A stretch of 64,000 nucleotides of DNA from Thermococcus sp. LS1 (GCF_012027395.1 NZ_SNUJ01000002.1:372001-436000); one strand, 5' to 3'; positions 24,230 through 32,994 are shown, counted from the stretch's first letter. Notes: generated from the letters alone by a model not told the origin. Translations and numbers: made by a program.

Positions 24230-25249
24230 ATGAACAGCTTCAAATGTGAGAGGTGCGGTGCGCCTCTCGAGGTCTCTCCCGAGACTATAGTTGCAATATG
24301 CCCCTACTGCGGCTATCCTAACCACATAAGCGGCAACCTGAAGACTGAGCACATCTACATCGTCCCTTCTCTGGACAAAAACGCCATAGCCAAGGCCTTC
24401 TGGGAGAGGGTTGAGAGAGATTTTGACCTGAAGAGAATAAAGGACCAGCTTCAAATAGTCGACATCGAAGGACACTACTCGCCCTACTGGAAGGGCTCGG
24501 TTCACGTTGAAGGTGAGGTGGAGTACACCGTCCGCGAGGAGGAATGCCGCACCTACACGGACTCCAGCGGCGAGGAACACACGGAATGTCACACCGTCGA
24601 GAAACACTACCACGACTTTGTCAATGAAGATATTCCGCTTATAGGTTCCGCCAGGAGGCAGGTCAAGAGCTTTGGTGTCGATGACATCATCGGGCACTAC
24701 TCACGGAGCAGGCCCAAAGGTAAGAGGCTTCTCGACCTTGACGAGGACCAATGGGGCAAGATAAAGCTCGAGATACTCAATACCGAGATAGATGAACTCC
24801 AGGCGAAGATGATGATGCGAGAGGATGCCATAGATGTGATAAGAAACCGCTATTCTGCGAAGGCCGACAGGATAGACCGCTTCGACATCAGGGCCGAAAT
24901 GCCGGAGAGCGTCTCCCTGGTTCTCTTACCGATGTGGACGGTCTACTACAAATACGGCAACTCAATTTACCACGTGGTTTTCGCCGGCTGGGACGGGAAG
25001 GACGTCGCAGCGACGGAGCCGATGACCATGCTTAGGAGGGCCCAGTACATCGGCGCCATTGGCCTTGGTTCGCTCATAGGTGCCTTCGGAGCGGCTTACG
25101 GGGGTGCAGTGGCTTCAGGGGCAGTAGTGATATTCGCGCTCATCTTCGGCTCTGTACTAGGCGGCTACGGTGGCTTCAAGGTCCTCGAGGGCCAGCGCGT
25201 CGAGAGGGGAGGTTCAATGAGCTCAGTGATGAGTGTATTTAGGAGGTGA
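24230..25249 (+). CDS. Zinc-ribbon membrane protein (YdjG-like), first of SPFH cluster
   Basis: The 339-residue product starts with a zinc ribbon, CERCGAP then CPYCGYP (residues ~6-28). A ~230-residue soluble domain follows, containing HYSPYWKGSVHVEGEVEY and a histidine/cysteine-rich stretch (EECRTYTD, HTECHTVEKHYHD). Two hydrophobic glycine-rich membrane segments lie at about residues 275-325 and a short basic tail ends the protein. The plan of N-terminal zinc ribbon and C-terminal membrane anchor resembles Bacillus YdjG, which helps recruit PspA to membranes. It starts a tightly spaced four-gene operon; the next start is four bases after its stop. Confidence 0.72.
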   Translation: MNSFKCERCGAPLEVSPETIVAICPYCGYPNHISGNLKTEHIYIVPSLDKNAIAKAFWERVERDFDLKRIKDQLQIVDIEGHYSPYWKGSVHVEGEVEYTVREEECRTYTDSSGEEHTECHTVEKHYHDFVNEDIPLIGSARRQVKSFGVDDIIGHYSRSRPKGKRLLDLDEDQWGKIKLEILNTEIDELQAKMMMREDAIDVIRNRYSAKADRIDRFDIRAEMPESVSLVLLPMWTVYYKYGNSIYHVVFAGWDGKDVAATEPMTMLRRAQYIGAIGLGSLIGAFGAAYGGAVASGAVVIFALIFGSVLGGYGGFKVLEGQRVERGGSMSSVMSVFRR

Positions 25250-25253
25250 GAGC

Positions 25254-26147
25254 ATGGAGGTCGAGTGTCCCACCTGCTCGGCAAAGTTTAAGGTTCCAGA
25301 CACGGTCAGTGTCGTCACCTGCCCATACTGCGGCACAACGTTCCAGCTCGAAACCAGGGAGGAAGTTGACGATCACTTCTTCTTCCCGCCGATGAAGAAA
25401 GACCCCGCTGGACTTCTCCTTAAGTTCCTCTCCAGACAGTACGGCGCTCCTGCAGACATCACCGGAGCGAAGGTCACCAAGAAGGAGCTCCACTGGGTGC
25501 CGGTTTATTTCTTCTACCTCCGCGGAAGGAGCAAAAGGTGGGAGACGATAGAGGAGATAAAGTTCATCGGAATCCCTGCTGGTTCGCCTCTTGCCCATCT
25601 GCTTCATGGCTACCCCTTCCCGATAAGGGGCAAGCGCTTCTTCGACGAAGCAGTCGTGAAGAAGGGCCGCTATTATGAGCCCAAGATATCAAAGGAAGAA
25701 GCGGAGGCCAAGGCCAGGGCAGAGCTCGAGAGTGCCCTGAGGAGCGAGGCGTCGCAGGAGGACAAATCCCTTGGGGGCTTCGAAATAGAAGTCAAGTATC
25801 AGGGTCTCGTTCACTATCCCGTCTGGGAGGTTCACTACGAGTATGGCGGTGAGAGATTCACCGGCTACGTGGACGGCTCGGACGGGAGAGTCATTCAGGG
25901 GGAGTATCCCCTCATGAGCGAAGCCCGGAAAAAGGCCACCATCCTCGGCGGCGCGGTGCTGGGAGGAGGCTTCCTCATTGGGCTGATAGCATCGGCAATA
26001 TACGGAAGCATCTGGGGAATCCTCGGTGGTCTGATACCCGCCGGCATAGGTGCGGCAGGGATATTCTCTAAAGGCTCCGTCAGGAAGAGAACCGTTAGCG
26101 AAGTTATGAAAGAGTATAAGGGCAACCTGTACTTCAAGCGGATGTGA
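25254..26147 (+). CDS. Second zinc-ribbon membrane protein of SPFH cluster
   Basis: 297 residues, a diverged relative of the preceding protein. A zinc ribbon (CPTCSAKF, CPYCGTTF) is at the N-terminus, a middle domain contains KKELHWVPVYFFYL and GLVHYPVWEVHYEYGG, and two membrane segments lie near residues 225-270 before a basic tail. I chose ATG 25254 with GGTGAG upstream; it makes the zinc ribbon start at residue 4. The HWVPVYFFYLRG and HYPVWEVHY motifs repeat the HYSPYWKG pattern of the first gene, so both probably share one beta-rich domain that occurs once in gene one and twice here. Confidence 0.7.
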   Translation: MEVECPTCSAKFKVPDTVSVVTCPYCGTTFQLETREEVDDHFFFPPMKKDPAGLLLKFLSRQYGAPADITGAKVTKKELHWVPVYFFYLRGRSKRWETIEEIKFIGIPAGSPLAHLLHGYPFPIRGKRFFDEAVVKKGRYYEPKISKEEAEAKARAELESALRSEASQEDKSLGGFEIEVKYQGLVHYPVWEVHYEYGGERFTGYVDGSDGRVIQGEYPLMSEARKKATILGGAVLGGGFLIGLIASAIYGSIWGILGGLIPAGIGAAGIFSKGSVRKRTVSEVMKEYKGNLYFKRM

Positions 26148-26156
26148 GGTGGGAAG

Positions 26157-26651
26157 ATGGGAAAGGAAACCTCGATAGTTGAAAAAATAGAGCTCTTGAT
26201 TCCAGGTTTTCACGGCTATAAGAAGAAGGAGCTCCTTAGGGAAGATGACAGGCTGATAAGGGGAAAGGTCGCGGAAATTCTTGGCCAGGCAAAAAGGGAA
26301 ATGGAAAGAGCCCTGCAGAGGTGCGCCATGGTGAACTGCCAGCAACTCATGGCAATTGAGAGCCTTCGCAAAAAGCTCATGATGCTGGAGAGCAGGATTC
26401 TCCATGCCGAAGCCGGCTACCGCGGCTACTTTGACCGGATTAAGTTCAGGGAGGATGAGCTGAAGAAGCTCATAGAGTACGACGCCCAAATGATAGGTCT
26501 GGCCGAAGAGATACTCAACGAGGCCAAAGCTCTGAACGGCCAGATAGCCAACCCGCAGGCCTTAGGCATGGCGGTTCTCAACCTCGAGGACAAGCTGACC
26601 AACTTTGAGGACGTCCTGAGCAAAAGAATGAGCTTTGTGGTGGGTGAGTGA
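26157..26651 (+). CDS. Coiled-coil protein of SPFH cluster
   Basis: A 164-residue, almost wholly helical protein. The start has IPGFHGYKKKELLREDDRLIR, whose G-x-x-G-Y-x-x-x-E-x-x-R-E-x-D-x-x-x-R pattern (quoted in part) looks conserved, followed by heptad-rich helices to the C-terminus and AGYRGYFDRI in the middle. No membrane segment or catalytic motif is visible. By position it replaces the PspA-like coiled-coil gene of the Bacillus ydjFGHI operon, but I see no clear PspA sequence similarity. It may scaffold or connect the membrane proteins to the SPFH protein. Confidence 0.65.
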   Translation: MGKETSIVEKIELLIPGFHGYKKKELLREDDRLIRGKVAEILGQAKREMERALQRCAMVNCQQLMAIESLRKKLMMLESRILHAEAGYRGYFDRIKFREDELKKLIEYDAQMIGLAEEILNEAKALNGQIANPQALGMAVLNLEDKLTNFEDVLSKRMSFVVGE

Positions 26652-26652
26652 A

Positions 26653-27636
26653 ATGGTAACCGTTATCGAGTGGGTCAACCCCGGAGAGGACGAAATAATC
26701 TGGCGCTATCCAAACGAGGTCATAACCTGGGGAAGCCAGCTGATAGTTCATGAGTATGAAGTGGCAGTCTTCATGCGCGATGGCAAAATCTACGATGTTC
26801 TCGGTCCTGGGAGGCACACCCTCACGACCCAGAACCTTCCGCTCCTCTACAAGCTCGTCGGCGGTTCAAACAGTCCGTTTAAGGCGACGATAATCTTCGT
26901 CAGCATGAAGCAGTTCCAGGGGCGCTATGGGGGAGAGACTCAGACGAGGGAGCTGGCTCCAATAAAGTACTATGGCGTCTACTGGTTTAAGGTGGCCGAT
27001 CCCGTGCTTTTCATCACCGAGGTCGTCGGCGGCCAAAGCCTATACGACGCTAATGATGTCACCAGGTTCATCAGGGCCTACTTCAACGAGGGCATGATGA
27101 AGCACCTCTCGACCTACTCCATCGTCGACCTCTTCCAGAACCTTGATATGGTCAGCACACAGGTCAAGGTCAAGCTCATAGAGGACTTCCGCAGGCTCGG
27201 CCTCGAGCTGGTTGACGTCAAGATCGAGGGTGTCAACACAACCGATGAGTGGCGCCAGAGGCTCTTCTGGATTATGCAGACCGGAAACGCTCAATACGTC
27301 ATGCAGATGGACACCACCAAGCAAGTTGCAGCGGAGCTCGGAAAGAGCTCTGGAGCGGCTATGGGCACAGGAATGGTGCTCATCCCGCAGTTGATGCAGC
27401 CTCCCGCGCAGCCGGCCCAACCCTACGCTGGAGCTGGAGTTCCGCCCGCTCAGCCGCAGCAGCCAGCTGCTCCAGCAGCACAGCAACAGGAGATATGTCC
27501 CTACTGCGGCAAGCCCCTCCCCCCAGGAGCACGCTTCTGCCCCTACTGCGGACACCAGATCCACCGCTGTCCAAATGGGCATGTAGTTCCTGAGGGAGCG
27601 AAGTTCTGCCCTATTTGTGGGGCTAAGTTAGAATGA
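26653..27636 (+). CDS. SPFH-domain protein with C-terminal zinc ribbons (YdjI-like)
   Basis: The 327-residue protein opens VTVIEWVNPGEDEIIWRYP, typical of the 'virion core-like' SPFH group (Bacillus YdjI type). The SPFH/band-7 part spans residues ~25-235, with LGPGRHTLTTQNLP near residue 55 and the DVKIEGVNTTDEWR segment at the end. A Pro/Ala/Gln-rich linker (residues ~245-285) leads to two zinc ribbons: CPYCGKP, CPYCGHQ, then CPNGHVV and CPICGAK. SPFH proteins oligomerise on membranes. The start at 26653 has GGTGAG upstream and lies one base after the preceding stop. It closes the cluster. Confidence 0.82.
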   Translation: MVTVIEWVNPGEDEIIWRYPNEVITWGSQLIVHEYEVAVFMRDGKIYDVLGPGRHTLTTQNLPLLYKLVGGSNSPFKATIIFVSMKQFQGRYGGETQTRELAPIKYYGVYWFKVADPVLFITEVVGGQSLYDANDVTRFIRAYFNEGMMKHLSTYSIVDLFQNLDMVSTQVKVKLIEDFRRLGLELVDVKIEGVNTTDEWRQRLFWIMQTGNAQYVMQMDTTKQVAAELGKSSGAAMGTGMVLIPQLMQPPAQPAQPYAGAGVPPAQPQQPAAPAAQQQEICPYCGKPLPPGARFCPYCGHQIHRCPNGHVVPEGAKFCPICGAKLE

Positions 27637-29830: not shown

Positions 29831-30235
29831 ATGGAAGACCTGAGAACCCAGCTCGAGGAGCTGAAGAAGAGGTTGGAGGCGCTCGAGGAGAGCATCGACC
29901 CTGTGGACGAGGTCATGCTTTCCATCAAGATGCGCCTCAAAAAGAAGCTCGAGAGCCTTCCAGAGCTCGACGAGGAAAAGGCAGCGAGGACGCTGAAGGC
30001 TTTGGCAAACCCCGATAGGATTAGAATCCTCAAGATGCTCTCCGAGAAGCCGATGGGCTTCAAGGAGATAAAGGAAGCGCTGGGTGTGGAGAGCCCCACC
30101 GTTTCACACCACCTCAAGCTTCTCGTCAAAACGAGGATGGTTAGGAAAGGTGACAAGTACGAGATATCGCCCGACGGTCGTTTGTTTTTGCGTTTGCTCG
30201 AGATAATTACTGCCCTTGAGGAGGTGGAAGAATGA
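29831..30235 (+). CDS. ArsR-type winged-helix regulator
   Basis: A 134-residue regulator. An N-terminal coiled coil (residues ~1-50) precedes a winged helix: ARTLKALANPDRIRILKMLS, then the recognition helix ESPTVSHHLKLLVKTRMV and wing KGDKYEISPDGR. There are no cysteines, so it is not a thiol-based arsenic sensor; the ligand is unknown. The operator in its promoter argues for autoregulation. Its stop overlaps the start of the next gene as ATGA, so the membrane protein is its partner or co-regulated target. Confidence 0.88.
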   Translation: MEDLRTQLEELKKRLEALEESIDPVDEVMLSIKMRLKKKLESLPELDEEKAARTLKALANPDRIRILKMLSEKPMGFKEIKEALGVESPTVSHHLKLLVKTRMVRKGDKYEISPDGRLFLRLLEIITALEEVEE

Positions 30236-31536
30236 GTTTTGAGTGGAAGTACCATGTGGTGGCACACGAGAGTCCAAGGTTTAAGATCGCCGAGTATCTG
30301 AAGGGTTTTACAGCCGTTTTGCTGCTTCTCTGGCTGTTCAAGGGGCTATTGAGGCTTGAGGAGTACAACGACTACATGGTCTACGCGATAATAGGCCTGA
30401 TATTTGCCTTCGAGCTGCTGAGCGTGGGGAAGTGGTTCGGCGTAACGCTGAGCGGAATAATCTTTGCGCTGGCAAAAGGTGCCTTCTGGACGAGCGTCTT
30501 CCTGTTCTTCGGGAAGTGGCTCGGCATGTCGAAGGCCCTCAGTGGATACGCTGGAACGGCCTTTGCATACGCAGTTGTGCTGACCATCGCGGGTCTGCTG
30601 ATGGCCAAGTTCGACGAGAAAAAGCTCGACATAAAGGTCGAGAAAAGTGCCTACGAGTTCAACGGGGCAGACTTCGGCGACGTGAAGCTCAGGGGGAGCG
30701 GTAAAGCGTATCCGATCAGATTTGGCAGGAAAAAGGTTGGCTGGATCCTGGATGGAGAATTTACAGTCGAGGCAGAAACCCCACTTGGGGCTGTACGGAA
30801 GAAGCTGATTTCTCCAGTTGCTCTCTGGACGCCTGAGAACATAACCGGAAAGAAGACCTCCCCCGATCCATCCTTCGTGGAAAGGGTAAACGAGCTGATA
30901 AACCCGGACAGGCTCTACAAGAGGGGCAGAAGGGACACGGTGGTCGACCTTGGCTTCATCAAAGTCTATGAGGGGGATGGTTTTGAGTACGTTAAACTGC
31001 CCTTCATAGAGGTCATAGAAACTCCTAGCGGTCACGATGTCAAGATAGGCCCTATGAGGTTCCGCGAGGGACACCCAGAGAGACCGCCGAGTGAAATGCT
31101 GACAATCAGGGAGCTCACCAACGGCTTCCAGCTCACCAAGGTCGGCGACAGGCTGAGGATTCAGACGGACGAATACTCGATAGAGGTTGACGGCGAGAGA
31201 GTTCTCTACAAGAGCGGAAGCGAGAGCCTATCCCTCGGGAGGGATCACGTCTCACTCCGCTCCGGAGAGGTTTCGATAACGGTGGGCAGGGGAAGGGCAA
31301 AGATACGCATCGAGGACGTGGTGATCTCGGCCAAGGAAGGAAAGGTTCGCATAAGGGCCGGTGGAAAGAGCTACACGGTAGAGAACAAAGATGCCTACAG
31401 GCTCGTTATGGCAAAGGCCAAGGAAATCGTGGAGGAACAGAGCGCGGAGCTGATAGAGGGCCTTGGCATAGACAGGGCCAGACTAAACAGGCGCGTGAAG
31501 GAGCTCCTGGACGAGCTAATGGAGTACTTAGGGTGA
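30232..31536 (+). CDS. Membrane protein with long C-terminal beta-rich domain
   Basis: The 434-residue protein has four hydrophobic segments in the first ~125 residues. A soluble remainder follows, including LISPVALWTPENITG and a stretch rich in short alternating beta strands (residues ~290-395: YSIEVDGERVLY, SLSLGRDHVSLRSGEVSITVG, KVRIRAGGKSY), then a helical tail. This strand pattern recalls the DUF4097 proteins encoded downstream. I do not recognise a named family. The four-base overlap with the regulator gene shows co-transcription. Confidence 0.7.
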   Translation: MSFEWKYHVVAHESPRFKIAEYLKGFTAVLLLLWLFKGLLRLEEYNDYMVYAIIGLIFAFELLSVGKWFGVTLSGIIFALAKGAFWTSVFLFFGKWLGMSKALSGYAGTAFAYAVVLTIAGLLMAKFDEKKLDIKVEKSAYEFNGADFGDVKLRGSGKAYPIRFGRKKVGWILDGEFTVEAETPLGAVRKKLISPVALWTPENITGKKTSPDPSFVERVNELINPDRLYKRGRRDTVVDLGFIKVYEGDGFEYVKLPFIEVIETPSGHDVKIGPMRFREGHPERPPSEMLTIRELTNGFQLTKVGDRLRIQTDEYSIEVDGERVLYKSGSESLSLGRDHVSLRSGEVSITVGRGRAKIRIEDVVISAKEGKVRIRAGGKSYTVENKDAYRLVMAKAKEIVEEQSAELIEGLGIDRARLNRRVKELLDELMEYLG

Positions 31537-31541
31537 AGGGA

Positions 31542-31625
31542 ATGGAAACAGTTGCCGTGATAGTGGAGGTAAATACACCTGAGGAACGCGATAAAGAAAG
31601 ACGGCCACGAAAGGCCGCTTTTTGA
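31542..31625 (+). CDS. Possible 27-residue peptide
   Basis: An ATG at 31542 is preceded by GGGTGA five bases upstream and opens a 27-codon frame (METVAVIVEVNTPEERDKER...) ending with TGA inside the T-run of the following terminator-like hairpin. The hydrophobic start and charged tail could be a real small protein, but the ribosome-binding site is also the end of the upstream gene. There is no independent support. Confidence 0.35.
   Translation: METVAVIVEVNTPEERDKERRPRKAAF
31602..31623 (+). terminator. Hairpin plus T-run
   Basis: CGGCC (31602-31606) and GGCCG (31613-31617) enclose the loop ACGAAA and are followed by CTTTTT. This intrinsic-terminator-like structure ends the regulator/membrane-protein transcript before the DUF4097 genes. 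Confidence 0.6.
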
Positions 31626-31655
31626 TTTTATTCCCTGTCCACTGGAGGGATGTCT

Positions 31656-32342
31656 GTGAGGTTCGAAGGAGTACGAGAAGTTGAGATAGACATAACCAAG
31701 GGACACATCAAGCTTGAAGGGTGGGAAGAGGATTACGTGGAGTTGAACCACAGTTCAGAGGGAAAAGCTACTGTCAAAGCTGTTCAAAAGGGAGAAAAGC
31801 TCAAAATAGTCGGGGGAGTCAGAAGAAAAGCCTTCAACCTCCTCAGGAAGCTTGATGATGGCAGGGCCGAGCTGGAAATCAGGGTGCCTAGAGATACGCG
31901 GGTTCATCTCCAGGGTTTTAGGGGAGATATCGAGGCCTCGGAAGTGAACTTCGAGAACGTGGTATGTGGTGGGGGAACCCTTATTCTAAAGAACTGCACG
32001 GCTAAAACGCTAACACTGGCCCAATCAACGCTCAAGGCTTTGCTTTCAGTGGTGGGCTCTATGAGCATCAACATTGCGATGGGGGATGCGGAACTCAGGA
32101 TTACGGAGCTTGAGGGAAACGTCCGCGCGAATGTCGTCATAGGTGCCCTCAGGCTGTATCTTCCTGACACCTGCGACGCCAGGATTAACGTTGCATCCCG
32201 GAGAAAGGAAAGGGTATGGTTCGAGGGGATTGATCCACTGGATCCCGTTATCGGCACAGGGAAGTACGAAGTCACCATAACCTCGGAGATGGGCGATGTT
32301 ACCATCGGACTGCATGAGGAGGATGGTTGGGATGATGTTTGA
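31656..32342 (+). CDS. DUF4097-type beta-solenoid protein, first copy
   Basis: 228 residues if started at GTG 31656, which has GGAGG seven bases upstream and aligns with the start of the paralogue that follows (FEGVREVEI versus FENVREVQI). An ATG two codons earlier lies too close to GGAGG. The product lacks a signal peptide and consists of short beta-strand repeats, ending VWFEGIDPLDPVIGTGKYEVTITSEMGDV. DUF4097 proteins (Bacillus YvlB, LiaG) form beta-solenoids and are associated with PspA-type envelope stress. Function here is inferred only by family. Confidence 0.75.
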   Translation: MRFEGVREVEIDITKGHIKLEGWEEDYVELNHSSEGKATVKAVQKGEKLKIVGGVRRKAFNLLRKLDDGRAELEIRVPRDTRVHLQGFRGDIEASEVNFENVVCGGGTLILKNCTAKTLTLAQSTLKALLSVVGSMSINIAMGDAELRITELEGNVRANVVIGALRLYLPDTCDARINVASRRKERVWFEGIDPLDPVIGTGKYEVTITSEMGDVTIGLHEEDGWDDV

Positions 32343-32994
32343 AAACGTGAGGGAAGTTCAGATAAAGGCCGTGAACGGCCGTATCAATATCGAGGGCTGG
32401 GACAACGACTACGTGGAAGTCGATTATACTCTACACGGTGAGGTAGATGTTGAAGTAGAGCAGGAAGGGAAAAAGCTTGTCGTCAAAGAAAAGCCCCGGA
32501 CAAAAAAAGTCCTTGGCATCTTCCAGAAGTCTTCAGACGGCTGGGCGGAGATTGAGCTGAAAGTTCCGAGGAAAGTCGTTGTGAAGGCTAAGAGCGTCAA
32601 CGGGGAGCTTCACGCAAAGAACGTCCGCTTCACCGAAGCCATAACCGTTAACGGTGAGCTTGAGCTGGAGAACTGCGAGGCGGAGCTTATAAAGACGGTC
32701 AACGGCGAGGCGAAGGCGAGCCTCCCCACAGCCGGCCCGCTGAAGGCAACGACGGTGAACGGGGATATGGTGCTTGAGATTGAAGAGCTGGAGGACGACA
32801 TAGAGGTAACGAGCGTGAACGGGGACGTGGTGGTTCGTATCACCGACTTCTGCGACGCGCGCATAAAGGTCACCAAAGTCAACGGCGACGTTGAAATTGC
32901 CGGAATAGACCCCAACGACCCCGTTATCGGGGCTGGAACTTATGAGGTCAAAGTAAGCACCGTCAACGGTGACGTGAGGGTTGAGCTGATTTAA
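32332..32994 (+). CDS. DUF4097-type beta-solenoid protein, second copy
   Basis: A 220-residue paralogue of the preceding protein, overlapping its end by 11 bases with AGGAGG upstream. It has about eight VNG-centred repeats spaced roughly 16-22 residues apart (SVNGELHAKNV, TVNGELELENC, TVNGEAKASL, TVNGDMVLEI, SVNGDVVVRI, KVNGDVEIAG, TVNGDVRVEL), the classic DUF4097 solenoid turn. No signal peptide or membrane segment is evident, so it would be cytoplasmic, perhaps acting at the inner face of the membrane. Confidence 0.8.
   Translation: MMFENVREVQIKAVNGRINIEGWDNDYVEVDYTLHGEVDVEVEQEGKKLVVKEKPRTKKVLGIFQKSSDGWAEIELKVPRKVVVKAKSVNGELHAKNVRFTEAITVNGELELENCEAELIKTVNGEAKASLPTAGPLKATTVNGDMVLEIEELEDDIEVTSVNGDVVVRITDFCDARIKVTKVNGDVEIAGIDPNDPVIGAGTYEVKVSTVNGDVRVELI

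Follow-up and report, generated by a model that had tools for sequence, protein, structure and literature searches.

In bacteria, SPFH-domain scaffolds are linked to PspA, and some archaeal ESCRT loci hold such scaffolds too. In Bacillus, the PspA gene stands beside SPFH and YdjG-like genes (PMC11237479). YdjI, the SPFH protein of B. subtilis, lacks its own anchor and depends on both YdjG and YdjH to reach the membrane; YdjI is in turn required for PspA to get there (PMC8581546). YdjG combines zinc ribbons with a YpeB-related domain and a membrane segment (PMC11237479), and Popp et al. have suggested a regulatory role for its ribbon (PMC9239133). The archaeal Meth_adaptin ESCRT loci encode an SPFH/coiled-coil/zinc-ribbon protein together with Vps4 and adaptin-appendage genes (PMC10936438). 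Here, we describe a block of four genes, A, B, C and D, in the archaeon Thermococcus sp. LS1, in which an SPFH protein is paired with a member of an undescribed family. The block lies in a 64,000-nucleotide stretch (NZ_SNUJ01000002.1, positions 372001-436000), hereafter the window, and encodes two related zinc-ribbon membrane proteins (A and B), a small helical protein (C) and an SPFH/zinc-ribbon protein (D).

All four open reading frames are adjacent on the plus strand, with spacers of only 4, 9 and 1 bases; the arrangement reported in a preliminary description of this DNA, with zinc ribbons in three of the products, membrane anchors in the first two and an SPFH domain in the last, has been confirmed. 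Genome searches find A, B, C and D in an identical set of genomes, 49 of the 94 in the order Thermococcales, and one further draft genome carries A and B on a contig that stops inside B. In all 16 neighbourhoods fetched from genomes with the full set, the genes are contiguous in the order A-B-C-D and the flanking genes differ; co-occurrence and conserved order together amount to more than chance, and the proposal of an undescribed, co-conserved module has thus held. The distribution is patchy: of two neighbouring genera, one has the set in one of its three genomes and the other in two of seven, always in full.

The module is not a speciality of the Thermococcales. A profile of C finds members in other families of the class, and in four genomes from two of these families C lies directly upstream of an SPFH/zinc-ribbon gene, with neither A nor B seen within the stretches read. 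A phylum search recovers C in 100 of 227 Asgard genomes, in many of which D follows C at once, with gaps of 6-46 bases (twenty loci); a contig scan with a narrow pattern gives 15 loci, including one from Sigynarchaeota whose C bears a zinc ribbon of its own. Two Asgard lineages hold the whole set, one in the order A-B-C-transporter gene-D (three loci) and the other in the order C-D-A-B, and elsewhere in the phylum A-B and C are 4-35 kb apart, with D no more than a few kilobases off at two of the loci. Among Asgard genomes, A/B are present in 84 of the 100 with C and in 23 of the 127 without it, an odds ratio of 24 that ignores kinship, includes drafts and serves as supporting evidence, not as a probability; where C and A/B share a contig, they are within 40 kb of each other in 43 of 44 genomes. 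Outside the order, too, C is the immediate upstream neighbour of D, both in other families of the same class and in several lineages of Asgard archaea, so that C-D forms the core; the paralogues A and B are a separable pair that also occurs alone. The recurrence of the set in Asgard archaea leaves the finding better supported than a first reading of one sequence allowed.

Several related arrangements were encountered. A second A-B pair, 30-35% identical and with no C or D nearby, is found beside queE in several Thermococcales; it was located at G000:C2:238094-239994 (L054:8077-10052) and in about 16 other genomes of the order, between queE-type genes and a gene assigned by eye to the RuvB-like/TIP49-type ATPases. 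Two draft genomes contain a variant operon (L051:9787-13932 and L052:5397-9473). It encodes, in sequence, a C that is 25-30% identical, an SPFH protein whose C-terminus has SHOCT where the zinc ribbons would be, a TPR-like/zinc-finger protein and a large protein with zinc ribbons that belongs to no known family. At four Asgard loci (L156-L158 and L145), a diverged C-like gene stands beside what by eye appears to be an ATP-dependent DNA-ligase-type gene; a divergently transcribed A-B pair lies 4-5 kb off, a spacing that is similar in about 17 genomes, and no D was seen.

By the evidence of its SPFH domain, D is assigned to the SPFH/Band_7_1 superfamily. With the profile of D, bacterial SPFH proteins from four phyla score 256-313 bits, the highest being a full-length match to a Butyrivibrio SPFH and zinc-ribbon protein; the profile also extends to prohibitin and stomatin structures. 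An SPFH domain, a C-terminal zinc ribbon and the lack of any membrane segment mark D as being of the YdjI kind. Proteins A and B are paralogous to one another (BLASTP 2e-7), and the ribbon cysteines of both (C6/C9-C24/C27 in A, C5/C8-C23/C26 in B) are invariant in alignments; in A these cysteines, together with W87, P234 and W236, are invariant across the Thermococcales, the A' paralogue and Asgard archaea. B matches PF13717 (1e-6) and PF03413 (PepSY/YPEB, 7e-4), both under the gathering score, and Asgard B likewise gives a sub-threshold PepSY/YPEB match (0.0024), in agreement with the published make-up of YdjG (PMC11237479). The structural model of B is modest (pLDDT 74) and has no match in the PDB. 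When profiles of A and of B were constructed with both Thermococcales and Asgard sequences, each aligned along almost its full length with the zinc-ribbon membrane protein whose gene comes immediately after the SPFH gene of a Vibrio plasmid (52 and 59 bits, with E-values taken from a very small search set). It is this homology to a Vibrio SPFH partner, along with the published description of YdjG, that points to A and B being of the YdjG kind. Ribbon, predicted hairpin, SPFH domain and profile matches all favour the YdjG and YdjI assignments made at the outset.

When the SPFH part of D is placed in a maximum-likelihood tree, whose long branches leave the deeper forks unsure, Thermococcales D and two SHOCT-type sequences of the class group together (support 97/98) inside a group with Asgard D, and the D proteins from two other families of the Thermococcales' own class fall outside it (branch 95/96). 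D of the window is 50% identical to an Asgard D and 37% to the D of other families of the class. An exchange between Asgard-related archaea and Thermococcales is possible and would explain this topology, as would an old duplication.

Of the four parts only C is new; A, B and D represent archaeal versions of kinds known from bacteria. Pfam contains no family that C matches above its cut-off. An AlphaFold2 model computed from 16 sequences of the window and related loci (pLDDT 86, pTM 0.84) predicts a short helix (residues 7-14) followed by a compact four-helix bundle (24-58, 64-82, 99-128 and 133-162), so that of the earlier view of C as a coiled-coil protein the helical character is retained but not the simple coiled coil. 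Two motifs characterise the family, PGxxGYKxKExxRxxD close to the N-terminus and HAxxGYxGxFD...E..L......D in the middle of the protein, and P16, G20, Y21, K24, E25, R28, D31 and R35 are invariant across the class and Asgard archaea. The only family-level signal comes from NCBIfam NF047596 (LIMLP_15305), an uncharacterised family named after a Leptospira gene: C of the window scores 26 bits (9e-6) and the best relative 52 bits (9.5e-14), aligning over much of the model, yet all remain far under the curated cut-off of 210 bits. The one paper found on LIMLP_15305 describes neither a function nor a link to SPFH proteins. Searches for plasmid homologues of C gave none, and none of 35 pattern matches in viral contigs could be confirmed.

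Given its position, C might be taken for an extremely diverged PspA or ESCRT-III protein, which would make the module an ordinary Psp system; C is indeed helical and small and sits beside SPFH and YdjG-like genes as PspA does in Bacillus (PMC11237479). We consider this very unlikely. PF04012 (PspA_IM30) does not match C at E-values up to 1, the four predicted helices are short and lack the long hairpin of helices 1 and 2 that typifies PspA, and a Foldseek search of the PDB gave no match at E<=0.001, with PspA, Vipp1 and ESCRT-III all absent from its top 50; a PDB sequence search with C, alone or as an 11-row profile, gave weak helical matches only (best E 0.02). A PspA or ESCRT-III identity for C was rejected on both profile and predicted fold. 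PspA itself has no PF04012 match over the cut-off in the 94 Thermococcales genomes, the weak matches being mostly segments of much longer frames, and none at E<=1e-5 in the 227 Asgard genomes, in searches that gave a match in nine of 14 control genomes. The suggestion that an unrelated protein takes the place of PspA is consistent with these results, and that of a protein outside the known families is borne out as far as ordinary PspA is concerned, but has to be tempered by the remote likeness to LIMLP_15305.

What might such a module do? By analogy with Bacillus, we see about an even chance that it is an archaeal SPFH-scaffold module that works like PspA-YdjGHI with a different soluble component. 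A and B would be held in the membrane by their C-terminal hairpins with the ribbons in the cytoplasm, where the ribbons would recruit D, and D would oligomerise into a ring- or dome-shaped SPFH scaffold. C, as the soluble partner in the position held by PspA in Bacillus, would bind D and could act as an adaptor or effector at the membrane, possibly via its short N-terminal helix and the PGxxGYKxKE signature. Its likely effect, in archaea that lack PspA, would be to stabilise or repair the membrane or to organise microdomains. That ribbons are swapped between C, D and the anchors, and that a ribbon can give way to SHOCT, suggests that the ribbons serve as protein contacts. The preferred reading is of an SPFH scaffold anchored in the membrane and joined by an effector or adaptor other than PspA, to which a function in membrane stress or as a substitute for PspA may be ascribed. 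A bolder proposal is that C is the founding member of a new class of effectors that remodel or repair membranes, widespread in archaea without PspA, including Asgard, and replacing PspA/ESCRT-III on SPFH scaffolds, and that the module reached the Thermococcales by exchange with Asgard-related archaea; this we regard as rather doubtful.

A number of observations weigh against a PspA-like scaffold module. In several Asgard lineages C lies kilobases away from D or from A-B, or the stretch read contains no D, and some A-B pairs have neither C nor D nearby. One Thermococcus-group genome carries a broken copy (L048, G069:C1:159620-164454), in which A is interrupted by some 1.4 kb of inserted DNA and D contains two in-frame TAG codons, which implies that the module is dispensable there. 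The N-terminal segment of C is only mildly more amphipathic than controls (mean moment 0.47 versus 0.37, spread 0.17), a weak signal on which an amphipathic helix is not claimed. Finally, an equivalent of YdjH is missing: none of the four products matches the TPM family, and the flanking genes with Pfam matches belong to other families.

C may remodel or protect membranes, or may only shape the SPFH assembly. It is a realistic, if less probable, possibility that C is dedicated to the SPFH ring, whether as assembly factor or as inner partner (cap, plug or cargo adaptor), and that the module organises membrane proteins or serves protein quality control, not repair. No unit is better conserved between distant archaea than C-D, which often has no adjoining A/B, and C is compact, unlike the long PspA hairpin; other SPFH proteins form cages and are implicated in roles from membrane organisation to protein quality control (PMC12624060, PMC11260169). 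On the other hand, anchors with zinc ribbons bring A-B closer to the Psp-linked ydj operon than to protease-linked SPFH operons, and the conserved set includes no protease gene.

Zinc ribbons are also able to bind nucleic acids, and a module whose ribbons contact nucleic acid or the transcription machinery could be a membrane-tethered device for signalling or gene regulation, in keeping with the role suggested for the YdjG ribbon (PMC9239133). This is improbable: the ribbons are short and generic, no DNA-binding domain is present in the set, and the substitution of SHOCT for the ribbon of D in some relatives, like the extra ribbon of C in others, fits protein-protein contact better. That the genes are neighbours by chance or form a merely syntenic cluster with no joint function is the least credible of the explanations. 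Some flanking genes are conserved as well in the Thermococcales, but the all-or-none presence, tight gaps and varied flanks speak against it, and the reassembly of the same genes in other orders in Asgard, the association of A/B with C and the conserved order have already largely refuted it.

The features of the block are collected in the table below. Hydropathy reveals no hydrophobic segment in C or D, and a search for structured RNA at the locus found none. A part in anti-phage defence was rejected: PADLOC gave no match for any of the four proteins. Further downstream, on the plus strand (window positions 29831-32994), lie an ArsR-type helix-turn-helix gene, a gene for a membrane protein of no Pfam family and genes for a Toastrack (DUF4097) protein and a similar second one. 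Toastrack is a Psp/Lia-linked domain; these genes are present in only three of the 16 neighbourhoods (each up to 19.5 kb) and were left out of the module.

Table. Genes and sequence features of the four-gene block (window coordinates; aa, amino acids; ORF, open reading frame).
Feature	Position	Strand	Size or basis
Gene A: YdjG-like; zinc ribbon at the N-terminus, then a conserved domain and, at the C-terminus, a two-helix membrane anchor	24230..25249	+	ORF, 339 aa
Zinc ribbon of A, CxxC...CxxC	24245..24310	+	Pfam search and alignment
Predicted membrane segment(s) of A, residues ~271-320	25040..25189	+	Hydropathy (peak 283-319)
Gene B: paralogue of A with zinc ribbon, weak PepSY/YPEB-like domain and, at the C-terminus, a two-helix membrane anchor	25254..26147	+	ORF, 297 aa, ATG start
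Zinc ribbon of B	25266..25331	+	Pfam search and alignment
Predicted two-helix membrane hairpin of B	25917..26075	+	Hydropathy (peak 227-271); predicted helices 222-250, 254-274
Gene C: predicted four-helix-bundle protein, undescribed family	26157..26651	+	ORF, 164 aa
Signature 1 of C, PGxxGYKxKE, after short predicted helix (residues 7-14)	26202..26231	+	Alignment
Signature 2 of C, HAxxGYxGYFD loop, junction of helices 2 and 3	26403..26435	+	AlphaFold2 model and alignment
Gene D: YdjI-like SPFH (Band_7_1), C-terminal double zinc ribbon, no membrane segment	26653..27636	+	ORF, 327 aa, ATG start
SPFH domain of D	26698..27273	+	PF13421 1e-30, PF01145 1.5e-21
Double zinc ribbon of D	27496..27633	+	PF12773 4e-10, PF13240 1e-14

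The pairing of SPFH with an undescribed family occurs in archaea where PspA was not detected, close kin of the eukaryotic host lineage among them. For questions of archaeal membrane organisation and repair, the block offers a four-gene target in genetically tractable Thermococcus, and Asgard biology gains a candidate SPFH partner.

Compared with the Meth_adaptin ESCRT loci, the module shares the combination of SPFH and zinc ribbon found there in an archaeal membrane-remodelling locus; it differs in its surroundings, the annotated flanking genes being of other kinds and neither the four genes nor the flanking genes tested giving a Pfam match to Vps4 or ESCRT-III. Bacterial plasmid SPFH pairs, such as that of Vibrio coralliilyticus, resemble it in that a D-like SPFH gene is followed at once by a gene for an A/B-like zinc-ribbon protein, and no C-like gene was found on the four plasmid records tested. 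The likeness is broader with pspA-ydjGHI of B. subtilis, which forms one transcription unit (PMC8581546, PMC11237479), an organisation that the archaeal set would share. YdjI, like D, is an anchorless SPFH protein with a C-terminal zinc finger, and YdjG is a zinc-ribbon membrane protein with a YpeB-related domain, to which A and B, with their ribbons and predicted hairpins and the weak PepSY/YPEB match of B, may correspond. The idea of an archaeal version of ydjFGHI is supported as to the YdjG and YdjI kinds; YdjH has no equivalent. Whereas Bacillus has a single anchor of this type, Thermococcus has two paralogous ones, and an unrelated C, predicted to be a four-helix protein, is present. By membership the module is not a Psp operon, as both PspA and YdjH are missing; by the analogy of its parts, it plausibly works like one.

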